Made by a program: the position numbers and the translations under genes. From contig DGUK01000046.1 of assembly GCA_002394635.1 (NCBI GenBank), forward strand, positions 1 to 32,201: a DNA stretch of 32,201 nucleotides. The letters are read 5' to 3'. This stretch comes from Faecalitalea sp. UBA4312 (GTDB lineage Bacteria; Bacillota_I; Bacilli_A; Erysipelotrichales; Erysipelotrichaceae). Positions 53-21,876 of the stretch are shown here, in pieces. The notes under the pieces are model-generated. The model did not search any database. It saw nothing but the letters and a program-made list of their open reading frames with translations, and had not been told where the DNA came from. Position 1 is the stretch's first letter. Each line of letters opens with the position of its first letter.

Positions 53-1129
53 TCAGAACAGAATATCTTTGAAACAGAGCCTTTGTTTTTCCTCTTCATA
101 ATCCCAGGTGTGGGCAGCCCCACCCCGGCAAAACTCCTTGGCTGAACAATGTCTGCATATTTTACTGCGTTGAGCCAAAGGGGACCGGTAGATATCAAAT
201 CGATCTTTCCAGACATCAGTAAATCGATCTTTATAAATATTTCCCTGAATCGTCTTCTTATTCCGTTCAATATCCAGACATGCCAGGATATCTCCGTTGT
301 TAGCTATACTGCCCACATAGAGCCCGGCGCTGCAGATAAAATAATGATCCCGGACTTCCCGTTCAACATCCAGCCCTAGGTAATGGGAGCACCCATAGGT
401 AACTGGTAAATTCTGTATTCTTTTATCCATGATAAAGCGAAAGAGCGTTTTCTGGTCTTCCGGTGTCAGTAACAGATCTTTTCGCAGCAATGCACGACCC
501 ATCGGTTCAATGCCGATCACTCGCCACGAATCTATGTCCATCGTGTTGAAGATCGTAAACAACGCATCCAATTCGTGAATATTTTGATGGGTCACTACTG
601 TAGTCACCTGCACGATATAGTTATGAGGAATCAACGCCTGTATGGCCTGCATGGATTTTTTATAGGCACCTTTGACTCCTCGAAACGTATCATGCGTGGC
701 TTCCAGTCCGTCTATACTGATGGATACAGATCGCATCCCGCTTTGTTCCAACTTTTTTGCCACATCATCATCGATCAAAGTCCCATTGGATGTCATACCC
801 CAGCGAAACCCAAGATCTTTGGCATACTGCATAATTTCAAAAAAGTCTTTTCGTAATAAAGGTTCTCCCCCGGTAATACATAAAAGCAGTTCGCGCAGAT
901 CAAAGTTTTCCTTGACTTCCTCCAGCACGGAAAAAATAACCTCTTTTGGTAAATCCTCCGAAATAACATCCCCGCAGCGACTGCCGCAATGTGCACAATA
1001 TTCATTACAGCGTTGGGTCATCTCAATAAAAAATTCTTTTAATCTTGGCTTTCGACATAATTCTTTATGATAATCCGCTAACTGCTGTAAGTGTTGTTTT
1101 TTTAACGCAATGATTTCATCGTAAGTCAT
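53..1129 (-). CDS. Radical SAM/SPASM domain enzyme, probable peptide maturase
   Basis: The protein has about 358 residues. Near the N-terminus it carries the radical SAM cluster motif CX3CX2C (C41, C45, C48), which binds the [4Fe-4S] cluster that cleaves S-adenosylmethionine. A GGEPLLRKD motif follows and then a TIM-barrel-like body. The C-terminus is a SPASM region: CX12GX4C, then CX2CX5C and a last Cys 17 residues on. The Cys often found just after CRGG is Ala here, so one auxiliary cluster may have an altered ligand. I chose ATG 1129 because GAGGA lies 6 bases upstream of it. ATG 1135 is also possible and would overlap the lipoprotein stop as ATGA. Coupling to a tiny lipoprotein gene suggests that the lipoprotein is the substrate. 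The domain class is secure; the substrate and chemistry are inferred. Confidence 0.88.
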   Translation of the reverse strand: MTYDEIIALKKQHLQQLADYHKELCRKPRLKEFFIEMTQRCNEYCAHCGSRCGDVISEDLPKEVIFSVLEEVKENFDLRELLLCITGGEPLLRKDFFEIMQYAKDLGFRWGMTSNGTLIDDDVAKKLEQSGMRSVSISIDGLEATHDTFRGVKGAYKKSMQAIQALIPHNYIVQVTTVVTHQNIHELDALFTIFNTMDIDSWRVIGIEPMGRALLRKDLLLTPEDQKTLFRFIMDKRIQNLPVTYGCSHYLGLDVEREVRDHYFICSAGLYVGSIANNGDILACLDIERNKKTIQGNIYKDRFTDVWKDRFDIYRSPLAQRSKICRHCSAKEFCRGGAAHTWDYEEEKQRLCFKDILF

Positions 1130-1131
1130 AG

Positions 1132-1341
1132 TCATTCCTCAGGAGGCCCATAAACAGCCGGCTCCATATTTTCCTCTGGTTCCAGATCAACAGGCGGTCC
1201 ATATACTTCCTCCACGTTTTCTTCCCGCGGATCGTACGGTTCAGGATACTCCACTTCTTTCTGAGACTGGAAACAACCACCCAATAAAAAGATTGAGGTC
1301 ACGGCTGTTCCGACAATAATTCTTTTTTTAGGTTTTTTCAT
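1132..1341 (-). CDS. Small lipoprotein with two VYGPP repeats, candidate radical SAM substrate
   Basis: This is a 69-residue protein. It has a lysine-rich N-terminus, a hydrophobic stretch (residues 8-22) and a lipobox L20-G21-G22-C23, so a mature peptide of 47 residues should be lipid-anchored outside the membrane. The mature part is acidic and proline-rich, and V-Y-G-P-P occurs at residues 46-50 and 63-67. A further YPEPYDP stretch lies at 32-38. I chose ATG 1341 because AGGAG sits about 7 bases upstream; a longer reading frame to 1524 runs antisense into hypA and has no signal peptide. The TGA stop touches the start of the radical SAM gene, so the two are co-translated. I recall a Bacteroidetes rSAM/lipoprotein system that pairs a lipoprotein with a radical SAM enzyme in the same way, but kinship was not tested. 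Confidence 0.8.
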   Translation of the reverse strand: MKKPKKRIIVGTAVTSIFLLGGCFQSQKEVEYPEPYDPREENVEEVYGPPVDLEPEENMEPAVYGPPEE

Positions 1342-1359
1342 ATTGTTTCTCCTACTTTC

Positions 1360-1389
1360 AGTATAAGTGAATTTTCCTGCTCGTTTCAA
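1360..1389 (-). promoter_or_regulatory. Sigma-A-type promoter of the lipoprotein-radical SAM operon
   Basis: Read on the minus strand, TTGAAA (1384-1389) is followed after 18 bases by TATACT (1360-1365). It lies 20 bases before the lipoprotein start and its ribosome site, in the short gap shared with divergent hypA. Confidence 0.65.
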
Positions 1390-1412: not shown

Positions 1413-1766
1413 ATGCATGAAATGAGCTATGTGATCCGTTTTGTGAATATGGCAATAGAAACTGCTCAGTCACAAAACGCAAAAAGCGTCGAATCTCTGG
1501 TTGTAGAAGTGGGTGAGATGACATCTGTCCTGCCTATGTATCTTCATAAATACTATCCCCAGGCTATTAAAAATACGATCCTGGAAGGATCGCAGTTAAA
1601 AACCATTGTTGTAAAATCAAAGGTCGAATGTTTATCGTGTCATGCACACTATCATCCAGAACGTTCCCATCAATATCTTTGCCCTGTGTGCCAGAGTGCC
1701 ATGGGTCGGATCCTGGAAGGACGGGATGTTCGTTTAAAAGAGGTACATATGACAATCGACGATTAA
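1413..1766 (+). CDS. hypA: Hydrogenase maturation nickel metallochaperone HypA
   Basis: The protein has 117 residues, the usual HypA size. It begins Met-His-Glu, the invariant N-terminus that binds nickel and fixes the start at 1413. A zinc site follows with two CX2C pairs (C73/C76 and C90/C93). HypA delivers nickel to the large subunit of [NiFe] hydrogenase, usually with HypB, which is absent here. The gene stands alone on the plus strand, while its partners hypC, hypD and hypE are on the minus strand. Its TAA overlaps the hypE stop in the palindrome TTAA. No convincing Shine-Dalgarno sequence precedes the ATG: upstream is only GGTG at a distance of 12 bases, with an AT-rich TAGTATAAC just before the start. 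Confidence 0.93.
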   Translation: MHEMSYVIRFVNMAIETAQSQNAKSVESLVVEVGEMTSVLPMYLHKYYPQAIKNTILEGSQLKTIVVKSKVECLSCHAHYHPERSHQYLCPVCQSAMGRILEGRDVRLKEVHMTIDD

Positions 1767-2743
1767 CAGATCCGAGGCAAGCCTTCAGTTTGCAATACCG
1801 AAAGACGACGGATCCCACCAATGTCAGTATGAAGCAACAATTGGCCTGGTCTGTCTGTTTCGACGGATCCAATAATAGATGCGTTTTGCCCATAGGGACT
1901 ATGACGAAGAATGCTCAAAGCTTTTTGAGCATCTTTTTTTGCGACAATACAGACACATTTCCCTTCGTTGCCCATATATAATGGATCTAATCCCAATAAG
2001 CCGCAAAAATCCTGGACAGCGCGGGAAACCGGAATATCTTTTTCATAAATATGGAAAGTTTTTTGGGAATTTTCTGCCAGTTCTTTTAAAACTGTAGCCA
2101 GTCCTCCTCTGGTTACATCACGCATACTGTGAAGCTCTACATCGGATTCCAGTAAACGCTCAACCATAGTATTCAAAGGAGCCACATCACTCTCGATCTC
2201 ACTGTGAATGGACAATCGATCCCCTAAGATGGCCGCATGATGGTCTCCTAAATTGCCAGACACAAGGATGATATCTCCATCCTGTGCTTTCTTTGCAGAA
2301 ATATCTACCTTTGGATCTACAAAGCCAATGCCCGCTGTATTAATATACATACCACCATTTCCTTCGATCACTTTAGTATCACCGGCAACAATGGATACAC
2401 CGGCTTCTTTGGCAGCCTGTGCCATGGAGCTCACTATTTTCTTTAACAGATCAATGGACAATCCTTCTTCCAGAATAAACCCGCAGGTCAGATATTTCGG
2501 AATAGCTCCTCGCATCAACAGGTCATTGACAGTACCGCAAACAGCAAGACGCCCGATATCCCCATTTTTAAAGACAAGAGGTGTAACCACAAAGCTGTCT
2601 GTGGATACGGCCAGCTTTTGATGGCCGGCTACCACTGCACTGTCTTCCATTTCATTGGAAAACGAACGGGTAAAGATTGTCTGGATCAAATCGTCCGTAG
2701 CTTGTCCACCACTGCCATGGATCATCAAAATACTATTGTTCAT
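1763..2743 (-). CDS. hypE: Hydrogenase maturation protein HypE, carbamoyl dehydratase
   Basis: HypE takes a carbamoyl group on its C-terminal cysteine and dehydrates it with ATP to a thiocyanate, the source of the cyanide ligands of the [NiFe] site. This protein has 326 residues and ends in the diagnostic P-R-I-C. The N-terminal HGSGG and the DVTRGGLATVLKE segment are typical of the PurM/AIR-synthase-like fold. I placed the start at ATG 2743 because AGGTG lies 5 bases upstream and the ATG follows the hypD stop. An upstream extension to 2848 would overlap hypD and has no counterpart in the family. The carbamoyl donor enzyme HypF is not in the window. HypE works in complex with HypC and HypD, the two genes before it. 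Confidence 0.95.
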   Translation of the reverse strand: MNNSILMIHGSGGQATDDLIQTIFTRSFSNEMEDSAVVAGHQKLAVSTDSFVVTPLVFKNGDIGRLAVCGTVNDLLMRGAIPKYLTCGFILEEGLSIDLLKKIVSSMAQAAKEAGVSIVAGDTKVIEGNGGMYINTAGIGFVDPKVDISAKKAQDGDIILVSGNLGDHHAAILGDRLSIHSEIESDVAPLNTMVERLLESDVELHSMRDVTRGGLATVLKELAENSQKTFHIYEKDIPVSRAVQDFCGLLGLDPLYMGNEGKCVCIVAKKDAQKALSILRHSPYGQNASIIGSVETDRPGQLLLHTDIGGIRRLSVLQTEGLPRIC

Positions 2744-2747
2744 TCTA

Positions 2748-3797
2748 TCACCTGTCATTTCTCTGATTGATAAAATAGGAATGACAATTACCTTCCTCGC
2801 TGACCATACAAGCCCCTTGCGGCTGTAAAGGCGTACATGCCTTTCCATACAACGGGCATTGGTAAGGCCGCATTTTTCCTGTTAAAACCTTATCGCAGCA
2901 ACACTTCTGATTCATCTTATGATCCTCGTTCAAATTAGCACTTCCGGCATCAAAAGCACTATATTGATTACGCAGCTGACGACCGGAACCACAGATTATC
3001 CCCATTCCACGCCATACAGCATCCACCGGTTCAAAGTAACGGTCAATCAATTCCTGTGCCTTTTCGTTGCCGGCTTCTGTAACCACTTCCGGATAAAAAT
3101 TCATCACCTTAGGCTGATGATAGGCATGCAGGATTCCATACAGGGCCACTAAGATCTGGCTAGCTTGAAATCCGGCAACTCCAAAAGGAATCTTATACGT
3201 TTGTGCCAGGGGATCAAATACTTTATATCCTGTTACGACCGCTACATGCCCGGGAGCAAGAAATCCATCGATCTTTGCCTGCTGGGCACATAATGTATCA
3301 ATGACCGGCGGCATGGTCTTCAAAGCTGTCAGCAATTTTACATTGGAAACAGATTCCTGCTCCAAGGTCTGCATCAATAACGCATATACCGGCATCGTCG
3401 TCTCAAAACCTACGGCCGCAAACACAAACGTCGTTTGTGGAGCCTTTGCAGCAAGCTTTAAAATATCAAAAGGGGAGTATACCATCTCTACATGCGCGCC
3501 TTGTCCTTTTGCCTGGGCCAAACTGACTGTGCTTCCGGGGATCCGGAGCATGTCTCCGAAGGTAACCACACACGTATCCTTTCTCATAGATAACTCAATC
3601 AGACGGTCAACGTAAGAAGACGGCGTCACACAAACCGGACATCCGGGGCCGGAAATCAAATGGATTTTATCCGACAATAAAGAGGGAATGCCACTTTTGG
3701 AAATAGCTCCTGTATGTGAGCCACATACTTCCATGATGGAAACCTCCGGGCCGTCATACGATTGCAGGTACCGGATGATATCGGTTCTGTCCATCAT
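2748..3797 (-). CDS. hypD: Hydrogenase maturation protein HypD
   Basis: HypD is the iron-sulfur scaffold on which, together with HypC, the Fe(CN)2CO group is assembled. All family motifs are visible: CGSHT at 25-29, GPGCPVC at 50-56, GFETT at 131-135, and a Cys-rich C-terminus (C300-302, C315, C322, C331, C339) that holds the [4Fe-4S] cluster and ends near GACMVSEEGNC. The length of 349 residues is normal. The start is ATG 3797, with GGAGG 7 bases upstream. It overlaps the hypC stop as ATGA, so the two partners should be made in step. A second ATG follows directly at 3794. Confidence 0.96.
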   Translation of the reverse strand: MMDRTDIIRYLQSYDGPEVSIMEVCGSHTGAISKSGIPSLLSDKIHLISGPGCPVCVTPSSYVDRLIELSMRKDTCVVTFGDMLRIPGSTVSLAQAKGQGAHVEMVYSPFDILKLAAKAPQTTFVFAAVGFETTMPVYALLMQTLEQESVSNVKLLTALKTMPPVIDTLCAQQAKIDGFLAPGHVAVVTGYKVFDPLAQTYKIPFGVAGFQASQILVALYGILHAYHQPKVMNFYPEVVTEAGNEKAQELIDRYFEPVDAVWRGMGIICGSGRQLRNQYSAFDAGSANLNEDHKMNQKCCCDKVLTGKMRPYQCPLYGKACTPLQPQGACMVSEEGNCHSYFINQRNDR

Positions 3798-4009
3798 CTA
3801 AAAGCCTCCAGTTGTGAAAACAGCTCCGTCATCTGTTCAGCTTCTATTTCGTTCATTTTTTGTAAGATACAGCCAGCATGTACCAATACATAGTCTCCTG
3901 TTTTTACATCAACCAGACCGGTTCTTGCTTCAACTTGATTTCCATTAAAATCCACAAGGGCCTTTTGACCGAACACCTTTTGTACCTTTCCAGGCAGGGC
4001 AACACACAT
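3794..4009 (-). CDS. hypC: Hydrogenase maturation chaperone HypC
   Basis: This is a 71-residue HypC/HupF-family protein. It begins Met-Cys-Val-Ala-Leu-Pro-Gly-Lys-Val. Cys2 becomes the N-terminal residue after Met removal and binds both the Fe(CN)2CO unit and the large-subunit precursor. The family requires the protein to start with this Met-Cys, which sets the start at 4009 rather than six codons upstream. GGAG lies 8 bases before this ATG. The gene follows echF after a 48-base gap containing a strong hairpin and is translationally coupled to hypD. Confidence 0.95.
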   Translation of the reverse strand: MCVALPGKVQKVFGQKALVDFNGNQVEARTGLVDVKTGDYVLVHAGCILQKMNEIEAEQMTELFSQLEAFR

Positions 4010-4037
4010 GACGATCACTCCTTTCACTTCATTTAGA

Positions 4038-4059
4038 AAGGTGGAGCTTTCTCCACCTT
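4038..4059 (-). terminator. Hairpin between echF and hypC, partial terminator or processing site
   Basis: This is a perfect 9-bp stem (AAGGTGGAG against CTCCACCTT) with a 4-base loop. It starts inside the echF stop codon, and on the minus strand it is followed only by a short TTTCT run. The weak U-tract suggests partial termination or 3'-end protection, which would lower hyp expression relative to ech. Confidence 0.55.
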
Positions 4060-4540
4060 ATTGAATTTCTTGTTTCTCTTCGGCTGCTTTTTTTGCTGCT
4101 TCCGCTTTCTTTTTCGCCAAAGCCTCTTCTCTTGCTTTTTTCGCTGCTGCTGCCTTCTTGGCGATTTCAGCTCGTTTGGCAGCTTCCGCTGCCATCACTT
4201 CCGGCGATTTCTTATAAACCGTTTCCTGTTTCGCAGGACCCGGCTTCTGATAACCGGGAACGATATGCAGGCATTTCTTTGGACAACGTTGTACACAATA
4301 GCCACAGGCAATACAGTCAAAGCGGTTGATGGTCCATGTGCCTTCAACCTTATTGACTTTCAGACAACGTGGCGGACAGCCACGTGTACAAAGCCCGCAG
4401 GAAATACATTCATCGATGTCGATCTCTATATGCCCTCGACTTCTTTCCGGATACACGGCAGGCTTTTCCGGATAACTTGTAGTAACTGGTTTAGAAACCA
4501 GATTTTTTAATACCTGGCCGGTAAATGTTAGAATTCCCAT
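4058..4540 (-). CDS. echF: Ech hydrogenase subunit EchF, 2x[4Fe-4S] ferredoxin-like
   Basis: The protein has 160 residues and two classic CX2CX2CX3CP clusters: C45, C48, C51, C55 and C76, C79, C82, C86. They carry electrons from ferredoxin toward the small subunit EchC; the family relates to NuoI of complex I. After the ferredoxin core a tail of about 45 residues (115-160) is made almost only of Ala, Lys and Glu and should form one long charged helix. I do not know this tail from standard EchF proteins. I chose ATG 4540, which has AGGTGA just upstream and follows the echE stop; the open frame to 4573 lies inside echE. It is the last ech gene, with hypC next. Confidence 0.92.
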   Translation of the reverse strand: MGILTFTGQVLKNLVSKPVTTSYPEKPAVYPERSRGHIEIDIDECISCGLCTRGCPPRCLKVNKVEGTWTINRFDCIACGYCVQRCPKKCLHIVPGYQKPGPAKQETVYKKSPEVMAAEAAKRAEIAKKAAAAKKAREEALAKKKAEAAKKAAEEKQEIQ

Positions 4541-4548
4541 GCTCTCAC

Positions 4549-5628
4549 CTATCTTTCCGTACAGCTGATACATGGATCAATTGTTAAAATTAAAATCGGA
4601 ACATCGGCATAATTGCAACCTTTCAGCATTTCCACCAAGGCCGGCAGATTCGCAAAGGTCGGTGTCCTGATACGTAGACGGTCCAGATAAAGTTTACCCG
4701 TTCCTTTTACGTAATATATCGCTTCCCCTCGCGGCTGTTCGATACGAACAAAGTGCTCTCCTTTTACGTTTCCTTTGACCGAAACGCTTAGTTCGCCTTC
4801 CGGGATCTTCGAAATTGCCTGACGAATGATATCGATGGATTGATAAATCTCATGGATACGCACTTCACAGCGGGCATAACTGTCTCCGTCCGAAGATACG
4901 ATTGGTTCAAAATCCAGGTCTCCGTAAGCTTCATAACCTAGAGAGCGCATATCGATATTAATACCACTGGCACGCGCAAACGGACCGACAGCACCTAACA
5001 TATGTACTTGTTTACGGCTCAATACGCCAACGCCCTTCAAACGGCTTTGTACAGAATAATCGAACAGGAAGGTATGCTCAATAACACGTACATCGGCTTC
5101 TACCTGATCCAGTTCCGTCAAGATGTGTTTCAACATATCCGGTGTAATATCCTTTAGTACACCGCCTACTTTATTGACAGAAAAGATCACACGGCCCCCG
5201 GTCGTCAATTCAATCAGATCCAGGATCCTTTCACGTATTCTCCAGCTTTGATAGAACAGGCTTTCAAATCCAAAGCCGTCAGCCAGTAATCCCAGCCACA
5301 GTAAATGACTATGCAGTCGGGAAAGCTCCATCCAGATGGTGCGTAGATATTTTGCACGATCCGGAATTTCCACATCCATAACTTCCTCTACTGCTTCACA
5401 ATAACCCATGCCATGACCAAAACTGCAGATACCGCAAGTTCTTTCAGCAACATACACCATTTCAAAATAATCTTTTTTCTCCGTCAGACTTTCCAGTCCC
5501 CGGTGAATAAACCCGATGGAAGGAATAACATTTGTAACAATTTCGTCTTCCAAAACAAGATCCAGATGGATTGGTTCTGGTAAGACCGGGTGTTGCGGGC
5601 CAAATGGTACAATACTCTTTTTCCCCAT
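4549..5628 (-). CDS. echE: Ech hydrogenase large subunit EchE ([NiFe] active site)
   Basis: This is the catalytic subunit of a group 4 membrane-bound [NiFe] hydrogenase, related to NuoD. The four nickel ligands are in place: C65 and C68 in RTCGIC, and C353 and C356 in DPCISC. The chain ends three residues after the last ligand. It therefore has no C-terminal extension for a maturation protease to cut, as reported for some EchE and CooH proteins, and no such protease gene is seen nearby. The length of 359 residues is normal. The start is ATG 5628, with AAGGAG upstream and one base after the echD stop. Confidence 0.95.
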   Translation of the reverse strand: MGKKSIVPFGPQHPVLPEPIHLDLVLEDEIVTNVIPSIGFIHRGLESLTEKKDYFEMVYVAERTCGICSFGHGMGYCEAVEEVMDVEIPDRAKYLRTIWMELSRLHSHLLWLGLLADGFGFESLFYQSWRIRERILDLIELTTGGRVIFSVNKVGGVLKDITPDMLKHILTELDQVEADVRVIEHTFLFDYSVQSRLKGVGVLSRKQVHMLGAVGPFARASGINIDMRSLGYEAYGDLDFEPIVSSDGDSYARCEVRIHEIYQSIDIIRQAISKIPEGELSVSVKGNVKGEHFVRIEQPRGEAIYYVKGTGKLYLDRLRIRTPTFANLPALVEMLKGCNYADVPILILTIDPCISCTER

Positions 5629-5629
5629 A

Positions 5630-5995
5630 TTATTTCTTCTCCTTCGGAAGGAATGGTGTCTCTTTTTCAATACGATACAGCTTATTGTTGTAGTCCAGTG
5701 AAATATACTTCACATTGACGCCATAAAGCTCCTTCATCTCATTTTCATAAAATACTGCCATCGGATAGATTTCCGTTATGCTCGGTACTTCCGTATCCAG
5801 ATCACAGATGACGCGTAGTGTCGTAAAACGATGCAGACCATCCTGAATAAATGAATAGCTTAATTCATATTTACCATCCACATAGGCTGCACAGATCTGA
5901 CTGATCCGTTCGCCCCTGTTTTTTCTGTCCAGCACATTCAGAAGCAGATCGCCTAAGTCAATTTCTTCAATCTTATATTCCCGGTTTGGTCTCAT
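5630..5995 (-). CDS. echD: Ech hydrogenase subunit EchD (NuoC-like)
   Basis: This 121-residue protein resembles the 30-kDa (NuoC) subunit family. The central segment with LHRFTTLRVICDLDTEVPSI and the following YPMAVFYENEMKELYGV match the family's conserved FYENEMxELYG region. It has no metal-binding cysteines. It is a structural subunit that joins the large and small subunits on the cytoplasmic side. I placed the start at ATG 5995, immediately after the echC stop at 5997. Upstream in-frame codons to 6013 lie within echC. The ABCDEF gene order supports the assignment. Confidence 0.88.
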   Translation of the reverse strand: MRPNREYKIEEIDLGDLLLNVLDRKNRGERISQICAAYVDGKYELSYSFIQDGLHRFTTLRVICDLDTEVPSITEIYPMAVFYENEMKELYGVNVKYISLDYNNKLYRIEKETPFLPKEKK

Positions 5996-5996
5996 T

Positions 5997-6446
5997 TTAC
6001 TGTCCCTCCGCATTTAGCTGGTATGCATAGTCATCACATCGTTTTTCAAACAAGTTGATGGCCTGTACCAGTCCATCGATGATCGATTGCGGTCTGGCAG
6101 CACAGCCAGGCACATAAATATCTACCGGTATGGTCGTATCCACACCGCCTTTGATATTGTAGCATTCTTTAAAAATACCTCCTGTACAAGCGCATGTTCC
6201 AACCGCTACAACCACCTTTGGGTTAGACATCTGTTCATACAGCTGTTTCACGACCGGCTGATTCTGTGAATTGATACCACCGGTAATCAAAAAGATATCA
6301 GCTTGTAAAGGGTCTCCGGTATTTATAATACCAAAGCGCTCTGCATCATAAACGGGTGTCAGGCAAGCCAGAACTTCAATATCACACCCATTACAGCTGG
6401 ATCCGTCATAATGAAGGACCCAGGGCGAACGTTTTACTTTTGCCAT
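5997..6446 (-). CDS. echC: Ech hydrogenase small subunit EchC
   Basis: This is the NuoB-like small subunit, 149 residues, which binds the [4Fe-4S] cluster closest to the [NiFe] site. The likely ligands are C18 and C21 in SSCNGCDIE, C85 in GTCACTGG, and C115 in YVPGC. The usual PGCPPRP reads PGCAARP here, a mild variation outside the ligand itself. It forms the electron path between EchF and EchE. It lies in the ech operon, 13 bases after echB and one base before echD. Confidence 0.95.
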   Translation of the reverse strand: MAKVKRSPWVLHYDGSSCNGCDIEVLACLTPVYDAERFGIINTGDPLQADIFLITGGINSQNQPVVKQLYEQMSNPKVVVAVGTCACTGGIFKECYNIKGGVDTTIPVDIYVPGCAARPQSIIDGLVQAINLFEKRCDDYAYQLNAEGQ

Positions 6447-6459
6447 ATTTCCACCTCCA

Positions 6460-7332
6460 TCAATGTACCAGCATCAGGACCAAAAGATTCAGTCCGGCTG
6501 CAAATAACGTGACAAGCCAGGTAATGCGAAGCATATTTTTCATTTTCATACGGGCACTGACATTGTCAATCAATACTTCCGTAAAGAATACCAACGCTAC
6601 AAGCACAACGGCCAGAGGAATGCTCCACAGATTCTTGTTCAATGCAAATAAGGCAACAAACCCCAACAAAAATACATTTTCATACCACTCTGCAATATGG
6701 AAGATAGCCAGATTTCTGGCTCCCATCTCCGTGGTGATCCCTTGTACCAGCTCCTGGTGTGCATGATGTCCGCCACTGATATCAAACGGCGATTTACGCA
6801 TCTTGATAGTCAATATGAACACAAAGGCAATAAAGAAACCAGGCAGCTGCCACAACAAAACAGAATCCGTCTGGCTGATTGCCCCCACATTAAATGTACC
6901 GGTTACCAGATAGAAGCCGACACAGGCTAGCAAAACGGCCGGTTCATATGTCATGATCTGTACCAGTTCCCGACTAGCTGCAATTGAGTTATACGGTGAA
7001 CTGGTAACAATTGCGGCAAAGTACAAAAAAGTAGAAGCCGTAGACAGAACAAAAACACTCATCAAAATATCACTACCACTAAAAAAGATAGCACCGGACA
7101 TGATCATCAAGATCATATAGGATAACAATAAACCGGACATCGAAGTATCCACTATATCGATCCTTTGTTTATTCAATAATTTCTTAATATCATAGAACGG
7201 CTGCAGAACAGAAGGCCCGATACGACCTTGCATGCGTGCTGAGAGCTTACGGTCAATACCGCTGAGAAGGCCTCCGATCAGAGGTCCGAATACAATGAAA
7301 CAAACTACGCTAAGCACATTTACAATCGTCAT
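6460..7332 (-). CDS. echB: Ech hydrogenase membrane subunit EchB (NuoH-like)
   Basis: This 290-residue integral membrane protein has about eight hydrophobic segments. It carries the NuoH-family signature RIGPSVLQPFYDIKKLL at about residues 36-52 and the acidic SPFDISGGHHAHQELVQG loop. NuoH-type subunits anchor the hydrophilic arm and link redox change to ion movement. The start is ATG 7332, which overlaps the echA stop as ATGA, so it is translationally coupled. The longer reading frame to 7455 runs within echA and is not supported. Confidence 0.94.
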   Translation of the reverse strand: MTIVNVLSVVCFIVFGPLIGGLLSGIDRKLSARMQGRIGPSVLQPFYDIKKLLNKQRIDIVDTSMSGLLLSYMILMIMSGAIFFSGSDILMSVFVLSTASTFLYFAAIVTSSPYNSIAASRELVQIMTYEPAVLLACVGFYLVTGTFNVGAISQTDSVLLWQLPGFFIAFVFILTIKMRKSPFDISGGHHAHQELVQGITTEMGARNLAIFHIAEWYENVFLLGFVALFALNKNLWSIPLAVVLVALVFFTEVLIDNVSARMKMKNMLRITWLVTLFAAGLNLLVLMLVH

Positions 7333-9248
7333 AAGATCGTACCTCCCAGAATCATACAGAACAGAATGAGGATCCAGCCACTGGCAATCAGCTGAGAAAG
7401 CTTCATCGTTCGTTCCGGCCGAATAAAGTCCGTAAAATACAGATTGGACAACCACAATTTATTGTTGTGGCCCAGAGAATTGACAAACTGGTTGTTGTTG
7501 CCCACATTCACACCGCTCATATAAGACAGCTTTACACTGGACTCCTGGTGTCTGGTATAGGTGAAAGCTACAACCGGCACCATAAAGATAAACAGGAAGA
7601 TCACAACCATGATGATCAGGATCGGTAAGGACAAAACATCTGTATATGTTCCGAACATCTCTATCAGTAACGGATCTACGAATACCTGTGAAATAATCGG
7701 AAGCAATACGCATAGCATGATCATCATACCAGCGTGAACGCGCAGCGAAAGCTTTTGGCTTTTCTGTGTTATTTCATCGGTCTTGGCACTTCCGCGATGA
7801 CTGCGGCTAATCAGTTTTCCCATCCATTTGGTCCAGTAAAGGCCGGTTGTCGCACTACCAAAAGCAATAAAGAGAACCAAAAGAATATTACCATCATCCA
7901 CAGCTGCTTTTAACGCCGACCATTTGGAAATCAACATACCAAAAGGAGCCAGGAACATACCGGCAATCCCGATAAACATAAAAGTAGCTAACGAGGGTAA
8001 ACGGTACAGCAGGCCGTGCATATTCTCAATATCTCTGCTTCCGATCCGGTTTTCCACGGCGCCTACTGTCTGGAACAGCAAAGACTTGGAAATCGAATGA
8101 AACATCATCAGGAAAACAGCCGCCCAGATGGTCTCCGGCATACCTACGCCACAGCAGGCAACCATCAATCCCAGATTGGAAATAGTTGAAAAAGCCAGTA
8201 CCCTTTTTCCGTCATTTTGTGAAATGGCCAGAATACTTGCTACAAAAAAGGTAAAACCTCCAACAAAGGACACCATATTGCCTGTTAATGTGCCACGCAT
8301 GGCCGGAGCCAGACGCAGGAGAATATAAATACCTGCTTTAACCATCGTTGCACTATGCAATAAAGCGCTCGATGGTGTCGGAGCTACCATGGCTCCCATC
8401 AGCCAGGTGGAAAAAGGCATCTGTGCCGCTTTTGTAAGAGCAGCAAACGCTATACATGCAATCGGAATGACTGCCGCTGCATTTTGCATATTTCCAAACA
8501 AGACTAGGTCATGGATCGAAACCGTTCCGACGGAACAGCCAAAATAAACAATACCAAATGCCAGTACCGTTCCTCCCAACAAGTTCATCCACAAAGCTCG
8601 GAATGAATTATTGACGGCCTCTTCCGTTTTTGTATAACCGATCAACAGGAACGAACAAACACTGGTAATTTCCCAGAACAAATCGATCCACAAAAGATTG
8701 GATGACAATACAAAACCGAACATAGCACCTATAAATATAAATAATAGTGCAAAGAAGTATTGCCGCCGATCGGCATATTCTTTATGGTGGTTATGATATC
8801 CATACATATATCCAACCGCATATATTATAATTAACCCTCCGATAAAGCCGATGATCAAACACATCAGAATGGATAGATGATCTACATAAATATGGTTCAT
8901 CGTCTCCATTTCCGGTCCCTTGAGTTCAAACCACGCTATCAGCAAGGTAGGTATGATCGAAAGCAGACTGACCCAGTACTTCCGATATTTAAAGCTGAGA
9001 AAAGTAATCAAGCACATCAGCCCGATTTCCACTACCAAAATAATATGATCTATCATATCTGTTTCCGGATAATAAGACATCACTTTGGTACCATTTGCAA
9101 GCCATTGACCAGCCAGCAGGAATACTGCTGCCATGATCAAAGCAACCCCTGCATACATGATATGATCCCTTATTTTCGGTTCTTTTATGCAATAGATAAA
9201 AGGAGCACATAAAAAAGGGAATACAATTAAAAATACGGTTATCGGCAT
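7329..9248 (-). CDS. echA: Ech hydrogenase ion-pumping subunit EchA (NuoL-like)
   Basis: This is a 639-residue, highly hydrophobic antiporter-like subunit that should pump protons or sodium ions. Family features are visible: Glu193 in FWEITSVCSFLLIG, Lys273 in LTKAAQMPFSTWL, the block APTPSSALLHSATMVKAG at 290-306, and FHSISKSLLFQ. The usual WLPDAM reads WLMGAM. GGAGGG precedes ATG 9248. It is the first gene of the operon that runs through echF into hypCDE. A TATGAT at 9279-9284 (minus strand) is a possible -10, but I see no good -35 before it. Whether this Ech pumps protons or sodium cannot be read from the sequence. Confidence 0.94.
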   Translation of the reverse strand: MPITVFLIVFPFLCAPFIYCIKEPKIRDHIMYAGVALIMAAVFLLAGQWLANGTKVMSYYPETDMIDHIILVVEIGLMCLITFLSFKYRKYWVSLLSIIPTLLIAWFELKGPEMETMNHIYVDHLSILMCLIIGFIGGLIIIYAVGYMYGYHNHHKEYADRRQYFFALLFIFIGAMFGFVLSSNLLWIDLFWEITSVCSFLLIGYTKTEEAVNNSFRALWMNLLGGTVLAFGIVYFGCSVGTVSIHDLVLFGNMQNAAAVIPIACIAFAALTKAAQMPFSTWLMGAMVAPTPSSALLHSATMVKAGIYILLRLAPAMRGTLTGNMVSFVGGFTFFVASILAISQNDGKRVLAFSTISNLGLMVACCGVGMPETIWAAVFLMMFHSISKSLLFQTVGAVENRIGSRDIENMHGLLYRLPSLATFMFIGIAGMFLAPFGMLISKWSALKAAVDDGNILLVLFIAFGSATTGLYWTKWMGKLISRSHRGSAKTDEITQKSQKLSLRVHAGMMIMLCVLLPIISQVFVDPLLIEMFGTYTDVLSLPILIIMVVIFLFIFMVPVVAFTYTRHQESSVKLSYMSGVNVGNNNQFVNSLGHNNKLWLSNLYFTDFIRPERTMKLSQLIASGWILILFCMILGGTIL

Positions 9249-10603: not shown

Positions 10604-12736
10604 CTATCTGAATAATGTGATATGTGTGAAGACAACAGCCATCGAATTGGCAACCGTTGACATCGTTTTGATGAAGATATCCAGCGCAACTCCGACAACA
10701 TCCTTACGAGTATCGCCAACAGTATCACCGGTTACTGCCGCCTTGTGAGCCGGTGTACCCTTTTCACTGCCGGCAATGGCGCCACTTTCAATATATTTCT
10801 TGGCATTATCGAATGCACCACCGGAATTTCCCATAAAGATAGCCCGTGGGATCGCACAGATCGTAGCACCGATCAGCATACCACCAACAAATTCAACGCC
10901 GAACAAGAATCCACCGACAATCGGAATGACCAGAGCCAGCACCGATGGAAGCAGCATCTTACGCAAAGCAGTATTAGCAGCCATCGCAATCATCTTGTTG
11001 TAATCAGGTTTTACAGTTCCTTCCAGAACACCCGGAACGGACAATTGACGATCCCCTTCATCAGCCATTAACTTGGCTGCATCAATCGTATTATCTGTCA
11101 ACAGCGCACTGAAGTATTCAACCATGGCACCACCGATGATTCCACCGGCAATGACAACAAAGCTCGCCATATTCAATACCGGCTCTTTCCCAACAGTTGC
11201 ATAATTGGATACATAAGCAACGATCAAAGAAACAGTCGCAAAGGCAGCCGATCCAATGGCAAATCCTTTTCCAACGGCAGCCGTTGTATTTCCTACTGCA
11301 TCCAGCTTGTCTGTAATCACCCGGACCTTGGCATCCAGATGGCAGGACTCAGCGATACCACCGGCATTATCAGCAATCGGTCCAAATGCATCAATCGATA
11401 CGGTTGCGCCGACAAAAGCCAGCATTCCTAATGCAGATACGGCTATACCGTAAGTTCCGCACAATTTTCCCGATAAGAACAAAGCGATACCAATCACAAG
11501 GATCGGAAGCAGACAGGAGCGGGATCCTACCGCATCTCCCTTTGTGATTACAAAGGCTTCCCCTTCGTTGGCAATCTTGGCCAGTTCACGGGTCGGTTTA
11601 TAATCAGTACTTGTGTAGTATTCTGTGATACTTCCGATGGCAACACCACTGATAATACCCAGTACAGAAGATAACCATGGAGATACCCATCCCAATCGGA
11701 ATGTATCGTATAAAGGCACTCGAGCAAAGATGATCATGCTGGCAAAAAAGCCAAGACCAATTGTCAATCCGGCAGAGATCCAAGTAGCCAGATCCAGTTC
11801 ACGGGATGGATTATCCGACATCTTTTTAATTGAGGCATAGAACAATCCGATAAGACAAGACAATAATCCTAAACCGGCCAATACGATCGGATAACGGATC
11901 GTAGCGTTCAGTGTAGCTTCCGTAATACCCTTGGCACTGTTGGCAAGCGCACTATTATATACCGTAACCGCAATCATCAAAGAGGCGGCAATGGTTGCAA
12001 CAAAGCTTTCCAGCAAATCGGAGCAGTTACCAGCAATATCGTTGACATTGTCACCGATGAAATCGGCAATTGTGTTCGGAACACGACTATCATCTTCCGG
12101 CAGATCATGACGGATCTTGCCTAGAATATCCGCTGAAATGTCGGCAGCCTTTGTATAGTTACCACCAGCAACACGGTTGAACATAGCCACAATCGAGCAT
12201 CCTAGTGAATACGTTGTAATTCTTGTGATACTAGGATTACACGGTAAGTTCACCAACAAGCCATGGCTTTGCGCCGAAGCATCGATTCCTTTAAAGATGA
12301 GCATGACCAGCACCAATCCGAGCAGCCCCATCGCCTGTACGCTTAAGCCGCTGATGGATCCGCCACATAGCGCAACCTTGACAGTTTCACCGATCGAAAG
12401 GCTCTTGCGCGCTTTGTTAGCTGTACGCACGTTGGCATAGGTTGCACTCTGCATACCTAATACACATACGATGCTGCTCATCAATGCGCCGAGCATTAAA
12501 GTCAGACCACTTGTCTTTTCCACAAACAAGCTGAAGATAACAGCCAAAACGATCACTACAGCGATGATAGCTTTGAATTCTGTTTTGATGAACGTATCGG
12601 CTCCATCACGAATAATACCCGCTAGTTCTTTCATGTCTTCCGTGCCTTCGCTCATTTTTTTGATACGATTATAATTCATGAATACATAGAGCATAGCCAC
12701 GATACATAAAACGAGTATAATGCATAAATACAACAT
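10604..12736 (-). CDS. hppA: Membrane-bound, ion-pumping pyrophosphatase
   Basis: The protein has 710 residues and about 16 membrane segments. It hydrolyses pyrophosphate and pumps H+ or Na+. The signature GGNYTKAADISAD at 191-203 and DAFGPIADNAGGIAE at 449-463 are present. Residues 482-490 read GNTTAAVGK; Ala rather than Lys after GNTT marks the K+-dependent class. The segment usually written DNVGDNVGD-AG reads DFIGDNVNDIAG (226-236) and continues NCSDLLES. The core Asp residues are kept but several neighbours differ. DLLES has Glu at the position typical of Na+-pumping or K+-dependent H+-pumping forms, so the ion cannot be settled. GGAGG lies 8 bases before ATG 12736. It is a single-gene unit with its own terminator. 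Confidence 0.95.
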   Translation of the reverse strand: MLYLCIILVLCIVAMLYVFMNYNRIKKMSEGTEDMKELAGIIRDGADTFIKTEFKAIIAVVIVLAVIFSLFVEKTSGLTLMLGALMSSIVCVLGMQSATYANVRTANKARKSLSIGETVKVALCGGSISGLSVQAMGLLGLVLVMLIFKGIDASAQSHGLLVNLPCNPSITRITTYSLGCSIVAMFNRVAGGNYTKAADISADILGKIRHDLPEDDSRVPNTIADFIGDNVNDIAGNCSDLLESFVATIAASLMIAVTVYNSALANSAKGITEATLNATIRYPIVLAGLGLLSCLIGLFYASIKKMSDNPSRELDLATWISAGLTIGLGFFASMIIFARVPLYDTFRLGWVSPWLSSVLGIISGVAIGSITEYYTSTDYKPTRELAKIANEGEAFVITKGDAVGSRSCLLPILVIGIALFLSGKLCGTYGIAVSALGMLAFVGATVSIDAFGPIADNAGGIAESCHLDAKVRVITDKLDAVGNTTAAVGKGFAIGSAAFATVSLIVAYVSNYATVGKEPVLNMASFVVIAGGIIGGAMVEYFSALLTDNTIDAAKLMADEGDRQLSVPGVLEGTVKPDYNKMIAMAANTALRKMLLPSVLALVIPIVGGFLFGVEFVGGMLIGATICAIPRAIFMGNSGGAFDNAKKYIESGAIAGSEKGTPAHKAAVTGDTVGDTRKDVVGVALDIFIKTMSTVANSMAVVFTHITLFR

Positions 12737-12782
12737 CTCTATATCCTCCCTTTTTACATATCGATACAACAATTTCCAGTTT

Positions 12783-15421: not shown

Positions 15422-15477
15422 GAGAGCATTGGAGGTATATGATTGTGGTTAGATCATATTTTTCTGTGCTCTTTTTT
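15422..15477 (+). terminator. Leader terminator before glpP, candidate GlpP antitermination site
   Basis: The outer stem is AGAGCA (15423-15428) with TGCTCT (15467-15472), running straight into TTTTTT. The inner stem is ATATGAT (15437-15443) with ATCATAT (15453-15459) around a 9-base loop, with an 8 by 7 internal loop between the stems. GlpP of Bacillus prevents termination at leader hairpins of glycerol genes when glycerol 3-phosphate is bound. A terminator here, between promoter and glpP, fits such control, including self-control. Confidence 0.6.
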
Positions 15478-15556
15478 AATACAAGTATCATATTTTCATC
15501 CTGCAACAGGTATCTATCAGTTTATGAATATACGGCCAAAAGCCCGAGGTATCCCC

Positions 15557-16132
15557 ATGACACATAATGATTTTATTACTTTGTTGGAGAACACTCCCGT
15601 TGTAGCCGCAATTAAAGATGATGAAGGCCTGCACCGATGTATTGAATCGGACATAGATATTATTTTTATACTTTATGGTGACATTATTACCTTGCCATCC
15701 ATCATACGAACGTTGAAGGATGCCGGAAAGGTTGCGATCGTTCATATAGATTTGATCAACGGCCTTTCTGCTAAAGAGATTACACTGGATTATCTTCATA
15801 AGAATACAGACTTAGACGGAATCATAACTACGAAAGTACATTTGATATCCCATGCCAAACAAATCGGTATGATTACGATATTACGGTATTTTCTGCTGGA
15901 CAGCATAGCGATGGAAAATATCAAATTACAAGGAAAAAAATCCGTACAACCAGATATAGTAGAGATCTTGCCAGGTGTTGTTGTACCGAAAGTGATCACA
16001 AAAGTAAAGATGATCAGCAAGGTTCCGATCATGGCCAGCGGATTAATCACAGAGAAAGAAGATATTATCCATGCTCTGAACAGCGGCGCAATTGCGATTT
16101 CAACGACGAATCAAAAAATGTGGTTCTCGTGA
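15557..16132 (+). CDS. glpP: Glycerol uptake operon antiterminator GlpP
   Basis: This 191-residue protein matches the GlpP family in length and order: PVVAAIKD near the N-terminus, IVHIDLINGLSAKE, GIITTKVHLISHAKQ, LDSIAMENI, IVEILPGVVVPKVI, VPIMASGLITEKEDI and AIAISTTNQKMW. GlpP binds glycerol 3-phosphate and mRNA leaders and lets RNA polymerase pass a terminator. I chose ATG 15557 because GAGGT lies 6 bases upstream and because the family begins about here. An in-frame extension to TTG 15443 would be translated from the leader hairpin and resembles no GlpP. It is followed by glpK after 42 bases. Confidence 0.92.
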   Translation: MTHNDFITLLENTPVVAAIKDDEGLHRCIESDIDIIFILYGDIITLPSIIRTLKDAGKVAIVHIDLINGLSAKEITLDYLHKNTDLDGIITTKVHLISHAKQIGMITILRYFLLDSIAMENIKLQGKKSVQPDIVEILPGVVVPKVITKVKMISKVPIMASGLITEKEDIIHALNSGAIAISTTNQKMWFS

Positions 16133-16156
16133 AAGCATATTTACCAAATCTAATAA

Positions 16157-17671
<1,515 letters not shown>

Positions 17672-17716
17672 TTTAATTATCAATCATTAATATTAAAAAA
17701 GGGAGAAAAAATTTAA

Positions 17717-17743
17717 GGGTGTCTGGCTGCTTGCCAGCCATCC
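17717..17743 (+). other. Strong hairpin between glpK and glpF
   Basis: GGGTG, a T/C mismatch and CTGGC pair with GCCAG and CATCC around a TGCTT loop. The hairpin ends 6 bases before the GGAGG of glpF and has no U-run, so it is not a terminator. It may protect the 3' end of a processed glpK message or tune glpF translation. Confidence 0.5.
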
Positions 17744-17758
17744 TATATGGAGGAAAAT

Positions 17759-18484
17759 ATGCAAACAAAATTAATCGCTGAATTTTTAGGAACTATGTTC
17801 CTTATCATCCTTGGTGATGGTGTATGTTGTAACGTTAACTTGAATAAATCAGGTATGAAAGGGGCTGGATCTATCCAGATCACCTTTGCCTGGGGTCTTG
17901 CTGTATTGTTACCGGCTTATACATTCGGAGCTGCTTCTGGTGCTCATTTCAACCCGGCAGTAACAATTGGTCAATGTATTTTAGGAAACCAGCCTTGGGC
18001 TGAGTTCGTTCCATATACAATTGCTCAGATTGCCGGTGCTTTCGTAGGTGCATGTATTCTGTATATTCTGTTCAAAGATCACTTTGATGCAACAGAAGAT
18101 CCGGGAACAAAACTGGGTGTATTCTCTACCGGACCTAGCATTCCTAACGTATTCCGTAACTTCTTAAGTGAATTTGTTGGAACTTTTATTCTGGTATTCA
18201 TGTTAGATGCTATTTCTCAGTCTGGAGCAGCCGGTGGATTTAACTGGTTCTTAGTTTATAGCGTAATCGTATCGATCGGTATGTCTTTAGGTGGTTTGAC
18301 CGGATACGCTATTAACCCTGCCCGTGACTTAGGACCTCGTTTAGCTCACGCCGTATTACCAATCAAAGGAAAAGGCGATTCCAACTTTAGTTATGGATGG
18401 ATCCCTGTTGTAGGTCCGTTATGTGGTGGTATCGTGGCTTCGATCTGCTACATGGCTTTAACAAATATGGGTGTATTCTTCTAA
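17759..18484 (+). CDS. glpF: Glycerol uptake facilitator GlpF (aquaglyceroporin)
   Basis: This is a 241-residue channel of the MIP family with six membrane helices and the two pore motifs NPA at 65-67 (HFNPAVT) and 186-188 (AINPARD). The Asp after the second NPAR is the mark of glycerol-conducting members. It lets glycerol diffuse into the cell, where GlpK traps it. I chose ATG 17759 because GGAGG lies 4 bases upstream; ATG 17747 stands before that ribosome site. It is the third gene of glpPKF and is closed by a long hairpin. Confidence 0.96.
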   Translation: MQTKLIAEFLGTMFLIILGDGVCCNVNLNKSGMKGAGSIQITFAWGLAVLLPAYTFGAASGAHFNPAVTIGQCILGNQPWAEFVPYTIAQIAGAFVGACILYILFKDHFDATEDPGTKLGVFSTGPSIPNVFRNFLSEFVGTFILVFMLDAISQSGAAGGFNWFLVYSVIVSIGMSLGGLTGYAINPARDLGPRLAHAVLPIKGKGDSNFSYGWIPVVGPLCGGIVASICYMALTNMGVFF

Positions 18485-18522
18485 AAACTGACATACATCA
18501 CTGATTCATTCAACGAATTGAT

Positions 18523-18572
18523 ATAAGAGCCAGGCATATGCACACTTCACTGTGCCAATACCTGGCTCTTAT
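18523..18572 (+). terminator. Long hairpin after glpF
   Basis: The 12-bp outer stem ATAAGAGCCAGG/CCTGGCTCTTAT, a symmetric 5 by 5 internal loop and an inner stem GCACA/TGTGC form the structure. It lacks a real U-run, so termination may be incomplete. The rest of the gap to 18768 is about 195 very AT-rich bases with no gene. It must hold the promoter of the next operon, but many weak -10-like boxes make the choice impossible by eye. Confidence 0.65.
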
Positions 18573-18768
18573 TAAGAAGAAACATCATAATTAACTATAT
18601 AACTATATATATAAAGCGCACAATTTAGCCTATTATTTTTTATTAAGATAAAATAAATCCTATATTTATTTATAAATTTTATAAATTTATATCAGTGATA
18701 TTATCTTTATTAAAATAAATGTTAATATTTCTTTGTAACGAGTTTAGAAACGAAAGGAGAACAAAACA

Positions 18769-21479: not shown

Positions 21480-21494
21480 CCTGGAGGACTCAAT

Positions 21495-21860
21495 ATGGAA
21501 AAAAGAGAACTTACATGTATCAACTGCCCTATGGGATGTCAGCTAACTGTGGAAATGGAAGGAAACGAAGTATTAAGCGTTTCTGGAAATACATGTCCAC
21601 GTGGTGATATTTATGCTCGTAAGGAAGTTGTCAATCCGACCCGCATCGTTACATCCACTGTACGTATTATCGGGGGTGACAAAGAACGTTGTTCTGTAAA
21701 AACCGCCAATGACATTCCTAAAGGAAAAATCTTTGAGATCATGAAAGATATTGATGCGGCCGTTGCTCATGCTCCTGTTAAGATCGGAGATGTGCTGGTA
21801 AAGAACGCAGCGGGAACCGGTGTGGATGTCATTGCGACAAGAAACATTCATCAAATTTAA
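21495..21860 (+). CDS. DUF1667 protein, probable metal-binding third subunit
   Basis: This 121-residue protein has four N-terminal cysteines: C8, C11, C15 in CINCPMGC and C34 in NTCPRGDIYA. They recall the [4Fe-4S] site of molybdopterin oxidoreductases and could bind a cluster. The rest, including KTANDIPKGKIFEIMKDI and VLVKNAAGTGVDVIATR, is typical of DUF1667. Members occur next to the same pair of flavoproteins, so it is likely a small electron-transfer subunit of the glycerol-3-phosphate dehydrogenase complex, comparable in role to GlpC. The function is inferred from context. TGGAGG precedes the ATG, and dhaK follows after 16 bases. Confidence 0.85.
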   Translation: MEKRELTCINCPMGCQLTVEMEGNEVLSVSGNTCPRGDIYARKEVVNPTRIVTSTVRIIGGDKERCSVKTANDIPKGKIFEIMKDIDAAVAHAPVKIGDVLVKNAAGTGVDVIATRNIHQI

Positions 21861-21876
21861 ATAATGGAGGCACAAG

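Follow-up and report, generated by a model that had tools for sequence, protein, structure and literature searches.

A conserved pairing of a radical SAM/SPASM enzyme with Tyr-Gly-Pro-Pro proteins at a Faecalitalea locus, and its possible relation to spliceases

At one end of contig DGUK01000046.1 from Faecalitalea sp. UBA4312, a gene for a very small lipoprotein with two identical Val-Tyr-Gly-Pro-Pro (VYGPP) motifs is followed by a gene for a radical S-adenosylmethionine (SAM)/SPASM enzyme. This arrangement raises the question of whether the motif is the target of the enzyme and which reaction it would undergo. The window, meaning the whole stretch of DNA analyzed, is identical to contig C2 (32,201 bases) of a 1.78 Mb genome in 109 contigs with a completeness of 81.7%, and the pair lies on the minus strand of its first 1.4 kb. 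Comparison with related loci reveals that the pairing of the enzyme with a motif-bearing partner is real and conserved. An enzyme-substrate link is very likely, and there are strong grounds to regard the motif as the substrate. For the reaction, leader-free splicease chemistry (tyramine excision) on surface lipoproteins represents the best single guess, with a probability of about one half.

The lipoprotein comprises 69 residues with the layout KKRIIVGTAVTSIFLLGG-C, followed by an acidic linker that carries both VYGPP motifs, 17 residues apart. A signal peptide with a lipobox cysteine (KKRIIVGTAVTSIFLLGGC) can be recognized by eye, and Cys23 is invariant when the protein is aligned with 11 partner lipoproteins of related loci. 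The list of open reading frames gives a longer lipoprotein frame, starting from an upstream ATG. The start of the enzyme gene overlaps the stop of the lipoprotein gene (..GAATGACT..), and the form of this overlap, ATGA, makes translational coupling plausible. An earlier interpretation based on the letters of the window (the sequence-only reading) had described exact repeats in a small lipoprotein coupled to a SPASM enzyme, a description confirmed by the sequence, the ATGA overlap and the Pfam matches. Two VYGPP motifs within 69 residues prove little by themselves; it is the conservation of the motif that shows it to be real.

Both genes are apparently intact. The 360-residue enzyme matches Radical_SAM (PF04055, 79.0 bits; cut-off 29.5) and SPASM (PF13186, 26.6 bits; cut-off 21.5), and the CX3CX2C cluster motif of radical SAM enzymes is present as C43xxxC47xxC50-G-S with C43, C47 and C50 conserved. 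Among 143 family sequences, the SPASM cysteines C268, C286, C327, C330, C336 and C354 as well as H342 are conserved at 1.00 (rounded), and an extra cysteine, C249, is near-invariant (0.99). The classical SPASM pattern contains seven cysteines; six of these positions are Cys, and the sixth, four residues after C336, is Ala, Ser or Gly in the rows viewed. The AlphaFold2 model has a predicted local distance difference test (pLDDT) score of 92.8. Since only a helix precedes the barrel, a fused N-terminal RiPP recognition element (RRE; RiPP, ribosomally synthesized and post-translationally modified peptide) is absent from the model. The enzyme frames of two other loci, L074 (genome G040) and L009 (G031), contain one in-frame TGA each, which in L074 is located directly after the conserved E258.

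Another search gave 5072 enzyme relatives, of which 120 were listed, P0060 and P0073 of this list being assigned to Ruminococcus flavefaciens. Within genomes, enzyme relatives were taken as matches at E ≤ 1e-60. They occur in 16 of 391 genomes from the class of the Lachnospiraceae genome G557 (including the entry genomes G556, G557 and G558) and, with the window's genome counted in both cases, in 4 of 395 genomes of the window's own class and 3 of 392 of its phylum. A Pedobacter locus (L004, 34% over 104 residues), whose genome gave no TIGR04133 match at 1e-60, was left out of the relatives, and G202/L036 from the window's class was counted among the TIGR04133-type loci described below. Nineteen loci, 16 from the class of G557 plus those of G124, G040 and G055, were fetched and compared with the window. 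In 18 of the resulting 20 loci, a protein with a Tyr-Gly or Tyr-Ala motif is adjacent to the enzyme (one weak, one a contig-end piece), so that the conservation called for in the sequence-only reading, YGPP lipoproteins beside the enzyme in other genomes, is borne out. A YGPP protein is encoded upstream in 13 loci (window, L057, L058, L060–L067, L071, L072); at L058 only the C-terminal piece of the partner, with two VYGPP, is left on the contig (seen in L121). Five loci (L068, L069, L070, L073, L074) have the partner downstream, with LYGVP in a lipoprotein (L069), EYAPP and MYGSP in two paralogues (L070), LYGPP (L073) and IYGPAP in a zinc ribbon (L074). Of the remaining two, L075 is cut off before the enzyme and has no partner after it, and G557, the genome of L059, has its motif-bearing protein on a different contig, a lipoprotein of 130 residues with five VYGPP. 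The same genome, in which no partner adjoins the enzyme, also holds a BspA-type frame of 1337 residues with leucine-rich repeats and a single internal CVYGPP (L118).

Within 450 bp of the enzyme, the called same-strand genes of the 19 related loci (14,325 residues) contain 21 copies of YGPP, spread over 10 loci, and those further away (31,946 residues) contain none; the gene caller missed the lipoproteins of L063 and L064, which were seen by another reading of those loci. Looser patterns have a background: Y-G-x-P gives two matches beyond 450 bp, and the loose Tyr-Gly/Ala pattern also matches three large near neighbors (L060, L070, L071). No shared third gene was recognized among the immediate neighbors examined, beyond the near relatives L061–L063, in agreement with the earlier remark that an export or leader protease gene is missing. 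In L061, L062 and L063 a gene for what is presumably a secreted-type protein, very long and of low complexity, lies ahead of the pair, and a presumed short-chain dehydrogenase gene comes after it.

A first alternative is that YGPP serves the lipoprotein only as a structural or binding repeat, with the enzyme acting on something else. Short Pro-rich repeats are common in low-complexity linkers. This explanation appears most improbable, since the motif recurs beside the enzyme on unrelated proteins and called genes at a greater distance lack YGPP. The partners fall into mutually unrelated kinds, namely small lipoproteins, a β-sandwich lipoprotein, zinc ribbons and small membrane proteins. Common to them is X-Y-(G/A), nearly always with Pro close behind, suggesting that a short tag rather than a scaffold is the likely substrate and supporting the earlier proposal of Tyr in a Gly/Pro frame as the target. 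Lipobox anchoring, also proposed there, is usual among the partners but not essential, as some partners are zinc ribbons or have no lipobox. The double zinc-ribbon family adjoins the enzyme in G040 and has no linkage to it in G870. All 14 aligned members keep the Tyr as well as the Pro at +2, with Gly (11) or Ala (3) in between. Both G557 and G870 encode more than one candidate substrate.

At the DNA level, 20 enzyme-positive genomes contain 37 matches to the VYGPP pattern GTNTAYGGNCCNCC. Of these, 31 lie in frame in candidate proteins (24 in adjacent lipoproteins, five in the trans lipoprotein of G557, one in its leucine-rich-repeat protein and one in the G870 zinc ribbon), and six lie elsewhere. 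In 20 genomes without an enzyme relative at E ≤ 1e-60, 11 matches were found, none in a lipoprotein-like frame as judged by eye. The backwards pattern matched 17 and 29 times, which indicates that raw counts depend on base composition and that the informative measure is placement in frame. Between orthologs, motif residues are better kept than linkers in the pairs compared: 20/20 identical (7 with different codons) against 23/50 for L061/L062, 18/20 against 20/50 for L061/L063, 19/20 against 24/56 for L062/L063, 9/10 against 25/60 for L065/L067 and 5/5 against 8/34 for L066/L067. The low motif identity of L065/L066 (4/10 against 10/60) arises because L066 has no second motif. This divergence speaks further against a structural repeat, the motif missing in L066 excepted, and agrees with a surface bearing several sites that react independently.

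A profile of 12 aligned partner lipoproteins retrieved 661 relatives, and the following counts refer to the 120 matches listed. A lipobox-like stretch is found in 116 of them, and in 101 the first Tyr follows the lipid-carrying Cys by exactly two residues. Of their 482 motifs, 467 have Val ahead of Tyr, 480 carry Pro at +2 and 478 carry Pro or Ala at +3; none of the 120 was seen to replace the Tyr ahead of GPP by Phe, Trp or His. As the search words include the motif, its conservation in this set is partly by construction; the evidence from enzyme neighbors is free of this effect. One listed relative, P0238, combines a type I dockerin domain with five YGPP motifs, from which tagged proteins may dock to cellulosome-like scaffolds.

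Crosslinking between the repeated motifs, favored in the sequence-only reading, was rejected as a general mechanism because partners with one motif exist (L060, L066, L069, L073, L074 and the TIGR04134-type lipoproteins). The Tyr of each tag would instead be modified independently.

The window pair is a below-cut-off branch of the TIGR04133 clade. TIGR04133 is the top NCBIfam model for the window enzyme (268.7 bits; curated cut-off 425), the relatives P0002, P0060 and P0094 score 268–295 bits, and the window enzyme, its relatives and above-cut-off TIGR04133 members form one clade with 100/99 support in three trees (32, 35 and 33 rows). All six TIGR04133-type loci examined have a Y-G-x-P neighbor: EYGTP in L036 (window's class), MYGCP in L126 and three proteins with QYGAP, CYGTP and LYGPP in L127 (both from the class of a Pedobacter genome), CYGMP in L130 (Treponema), and EYGSP and EYGTP in L131 and L143 (Bacteroidota); this count is not independent, since TIGR04134 was defined on such proteins. 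The window lipoprotein gave no TIGR04134 match at E ≤ 1. A bridge between both types is provided by the Clostridia locus L071, whose lipoprotein scores 52.3 bits on TIGR04134 (cut-off 39.8) and contains GMYGPPP, and whose enzyme scores 385.9 bits on TIGR04133. NCBI curators had already paired the two models as hypothetical equivalogs without function, and the radical SAM/lipoprotein system of Bacteroidota with a Tyr-Gly-x-Pro motif that the sequence-only reading mentioned is indeed this pair.

Beyond this clade, the enzymes of TIGR04103 (PlpX; presumably equivalent to IPR026482) and TIGR03913 appear from the trees as the best-supported, if unproven, sister of the family. They are sister in both trees that hold them, with support of 96/96 and 85/78. 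For the second tree, six long-branch rows (L008, L009, L011, L012, L013, L020) were dropped and four added, with NirJ among the additions, two of which (L150 and L151) are long too; a search for NirJ2 in 118 Clostridia genomes yielded no outgroup. Residues shared with one other group and rare elsewhere number four for the splicease clade (G51, W204, E258 and R262, forming the shared pattern E258xxxR262 with the last two), two each for MftC and the heme types and none for PqqE. In a tblastn search of plasmids with the L071 enzyme, an Aureibacter enzyme with DUF1843 neighbors and a Nostoc 'nif11-class peptide radical SAM maturase 3' (the TIGR04103 name) follow the TIGR04133-type enzymes, ahead of MftC and PqqE. 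BLASTP with the window enzyme gave 160 bits for an Agathobacter enzyme, 134 for Aureibacter, 121 for Thermomicrobium MftC and 120 for the Nostoc TIGR04103 enzyme.

The substrate candidates of the sister clade resemble the tags described here. At the Nostoc locus, a Nif11 precursor ending in ALYGLPPELF is located right before the TIGR04103 enzyme. Eight DUF1843 peptides encoded next to TIGR03913-type enzymes carry Tyr-Gly in four cases (PYGA, PYGP, LYGG, PYGV), Tyr-Ala in two (LYAA, MYAA) and MYMA in two; these peptides may be splicease substrates. Two further plasmid loci were noted. On an Agathobacter rectalis plasmid (L136), the radical SAM enzyme branching first in the splicease clade (100/99) is followed by a major facilitator superfamily transporter, and no substrate was found at this locus. 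On a Tropicibacter oceani plasmid (L137), a PlpX-like enzyme is directly followed by genes for a trypsin-like peptidase and an M23 peptidase, and the phosphotransferase gene ahead of it holds FYGLPPG.

Published work reports that PlpXY excises tyramine at XYG and that its leader is dispensable (PMC10533398; PMC11002830), lists tags including PIRP(L/G)YGLPI (PMC10533398) and identifies the PlpX subclass as IPR026482 (PMC11002830); a DUF1843 protein is treated as of unknown function in PMC10994174. The sister clade, the shared residues and the Tyr-Gly of the sister substrates in combination make tyramine excision the best single guess for the window enzyme. In such a scheme, the enzyme would recognize short X-Tyr-Gly-(Pro)-Pro tags in the cytoplasm, ahead of export, and would remove tyramine from each (−135.08 Da per motif) without a leader. 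The Sec and lipoprotein pathways would then anchor the product at the cell surface through Cys23.

Several observations weigh against splicease chemistry at these tags. The window enzyme reaches 117.8 bits on TIGR04103, far below its cut-off of 725 and lower than on the AhbD, NirJ, MftC and TIGR04053 models. Thermomicrobium MftC is level with the Nostoc enzyme in the BLASTP search, and alternative sister groups are not rejected by approximately unbiased (AU) tests (p = 0.107 with heme-type rows, 0.155 with MftC and 0.166 with both). These findings speak for a different reaction at Tyr or Val-Tyr, for example oxidation of the MftC kind, β-hydroxylation, epimerization or loss of p-cresol. Nevertheless, such a reaction seems improbable, as MftC acts on a C-terminal Val-Tyr, whereas Tyr is internal here, and fewer residues are exclusively shared with MftC, the heme types or PqqE than with the splicease clade. 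At the level of the partners, the motif at L068 (AYGID) is weak and lacks Pro, L059 shows that adjacency is not universal, and Gly is replaced by Ala in three of the 14 zinc ribbons and in one L070 partner; the MYMA of two DUF1843 peptides deviates as well. No PlpY-like gene was recognized among the examined neighbors, where no RRE model search was made, and just 52 bases of the window lie beyond the enzyme. In PMC10533398, most YGLPI tags inserted into FtsZ were unmodified and two variants were modified, so that a short XYG tag is not sufficient for PlpXY in every setting described there.

Finally, the lipoproteins keep Pro at +2 and +3 much more strictly than XYG by itself requires, yet YGLP and YGLPP sites exist in the sister family. 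The nearly fixed Pro at +2 is in line with the main rival explanation, a C-C or C-O crosslink within each tag, for instance a three-residue cyclophane linking the Tyr ring to the +2 residue. Many SPASM enzymes crosslink peptides, and the best PDB matches of the model in a Foldseek search include SkfB, 5why/5wgg (CteB), SuiB and anSME. Moreover, a β carbon, which a cyclophane requires, is present in every +2 residue observed among the partners of the family (P, A, S, C, T, V, M, I, H). Opposed to this are the position of the PlpX/TIGR03913 clade as the best-supported sister and its substrate candidates, which share Tyr-Gly/Ala and in one case have Gly at +2 (LYGG). A crosslink within the tag is a possible but less probable outcome than tyramine excision. 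Even then, a radical modification would be directed by a short tag, and its candidate substrates would be several unrelated proteins.

In the listed lipoproteins the first tag is usually situated at the mature N-terminus beside the lipid, and in the window the tag is repeated along the linker. The modified lipoprotein may have a role at the surface. Splicing of proteins is reportedly a known idea, from work, some of it of 2022, that a review cites. Spliceotide products are cited as protease inhibitors in PMC11117315 and PMC10373908, which leaves anchored protease inhibition as the boldest reading. In its widest form, tag-directed protein splicing would be widespread in Bacillota and Bacteroidota: a leader-free splicease would install α-keto-β-amino acid electrophiles (mostly β-Val) at XYGPP tags of many unrelated proteins, chiefly surface lipoproteins, as anchored arrays of warheads for protease inhibition or covalent capture. 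This extended proposal is doubtful. Val before the excised Tyr would suit elastase-like gut proteases. If the tag is spliced, backbone β-amino acids would no longer be limited to exported peptide natural products but would be ordinary parts of surface proteins in bacteria, TIGR04133/TIGR04134, hitherto named only as hypothetical, would gain a function, and a short leader-free tag could be of use in protein labeling. Cells may in this way fit their surface proteins with unusual reactive amino acids.

The features of the locus are compiled in Table 1. The sequence-only reading assumed one good promoter, and extended the feature to position 1389 by including the promoter-like site. A promoter-like site scoring 10/12 does lie upstream of the pair, but a scan found 7 sites against 4.0 ± 2.0 expected, which renders the promoter plausible only. 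On the other side of the pair, the 52 bases up to the contig end limit the view downstream.

Table 1. Positions of the pair and of its sequence elements in the window.
Feature	Position	Strand	Basis
Radical SAM/SPASM enzyme, 360 aa	53..1135	-	Pfam, NCBIfam, alignment, AlphaFold2 model
Lipoprotein precursor, 69 aa, probable substrate	1132..1341	-	Sequence and frame
Lipobox LLGGC, lipidation Cys23	1273..1287	-	Sequence; Cys invariant in 12/12 aligned
First VYGPP motif	1192..1206	-	DNA pattern match 1193-1206 and translation
Second VYGPP motif	1141..1155	-	DNA pattern match 1142-1155 and translation
Promoter-like site TTGAAA-18-TATACT	1360..1389 (read 1389-1360)	-	Consensus match only, 10/12
Shine-Dalgarno-like TAGGAG ahead of lipoprotein start	1348..1353	-	Read from sequence

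Adjoining the pair (1413–9248) are hypA on the plus strand and minus-strand genes including subunits of an Ech-like membrane-bound hydrogenase, with Pfam matches to Fer4, Complex1_49kDa with a NiFeSe_Hases stretch, Complex1_30kDa, Oxidored_q6, NADHdh and Proton_antipo_M; two further minus-strand genes of this region are presumably hypE- and hypD-like. A functional link of the pair to these genes was considered and dropped: no hydrogenase gene was recognized, by inspection without a model search, among the examined neighbors of the relatives, and the proximity is taken as chance. Further along, the window encodes an H+-translocating pyrophosphatase (10604–12772; PF03030, 646.7 bits) and glycerol/dihydroxyacetone genes (15443–22869), namely a glycerol-3-phosphate antiterminator, an FGGY kinase, a major intrinsic protein (MIP) channel, a flavin adenine dinucleotide (FAD) oxidoreductase with a BFD-like domain, a Pyr_redox_2 protein and Dak1. 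Additional VYGPP matches in the genome were discarded, as the one on contig C18 lies in a short unconvincing frame and the one on C69 in no frame.

The literature searched, a set that did not include the key splicease papers, yielded nothing on TIGR04133/TIGR04134 or on radical SAM enzymes with YGPP-type tags. To call the system undescribed, as in the sequence-only reading, was too strong in view of the curated pairing and of the characterized spliceases (PlpX) among the probable relatives. New here, and absent from the literature searched, are the repeated-VYGPP branch, the observation that scaffolds are unrelated and may be encoded away from the enzyme, and the connection with the splicease clade.

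Compared with known systems, the SPASM peptide crosslinkers SuiB, SkfB and CteB, together with anSME the closest solved folds, have 19–22% identity to the window enzyme, and we know of no substrate motif shared with them. The TIGR03913 GDL-motif maturases with DUF1843 peptides belong to the same sister clade as PlpX, and Y-G or Y-A is present in six of the eight peptides; their substrate candidates are small and non-lipoprotein, and the enzymes are longer, with a C-terminal Cys-rich extension. PlpX-type systems have X-Tyr-Gly substrates, including YGLP and YGLPP, to which the window lipoprotein corresponds with two VYG sites and most partners with X-Y-G, a minority having Y-A. In contrast to the window family, PlpX works with the RRE protein PlpY and with Nif11 or nitrile-hydratase-like leaders, and no leader of these kinds was seen in the window family; the sixth SPASM Cys is kept in the Nostoc copy and replaced in the window family, and the window substrate would stay anchored as a lipoprotein, unlike PlpX products. 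A close known counterpart is TIGR04133 (rSAM_w_lipo)/TIGR04134 (lipo_with_rSAM) of Bacteroidota and Treponema. The window enzyme scores below the TIGR04133 cut-off, and the window lipoprotein is shorter, has repeated VYGPP and does not match TIGR04134. Both systems share the enzyme clade (100/99), the gene order from lipoprotein to enzyme, as in the annotated Treponema and Parabacteroides plasmids, and Y-G-x-P near the lipidated Cys.

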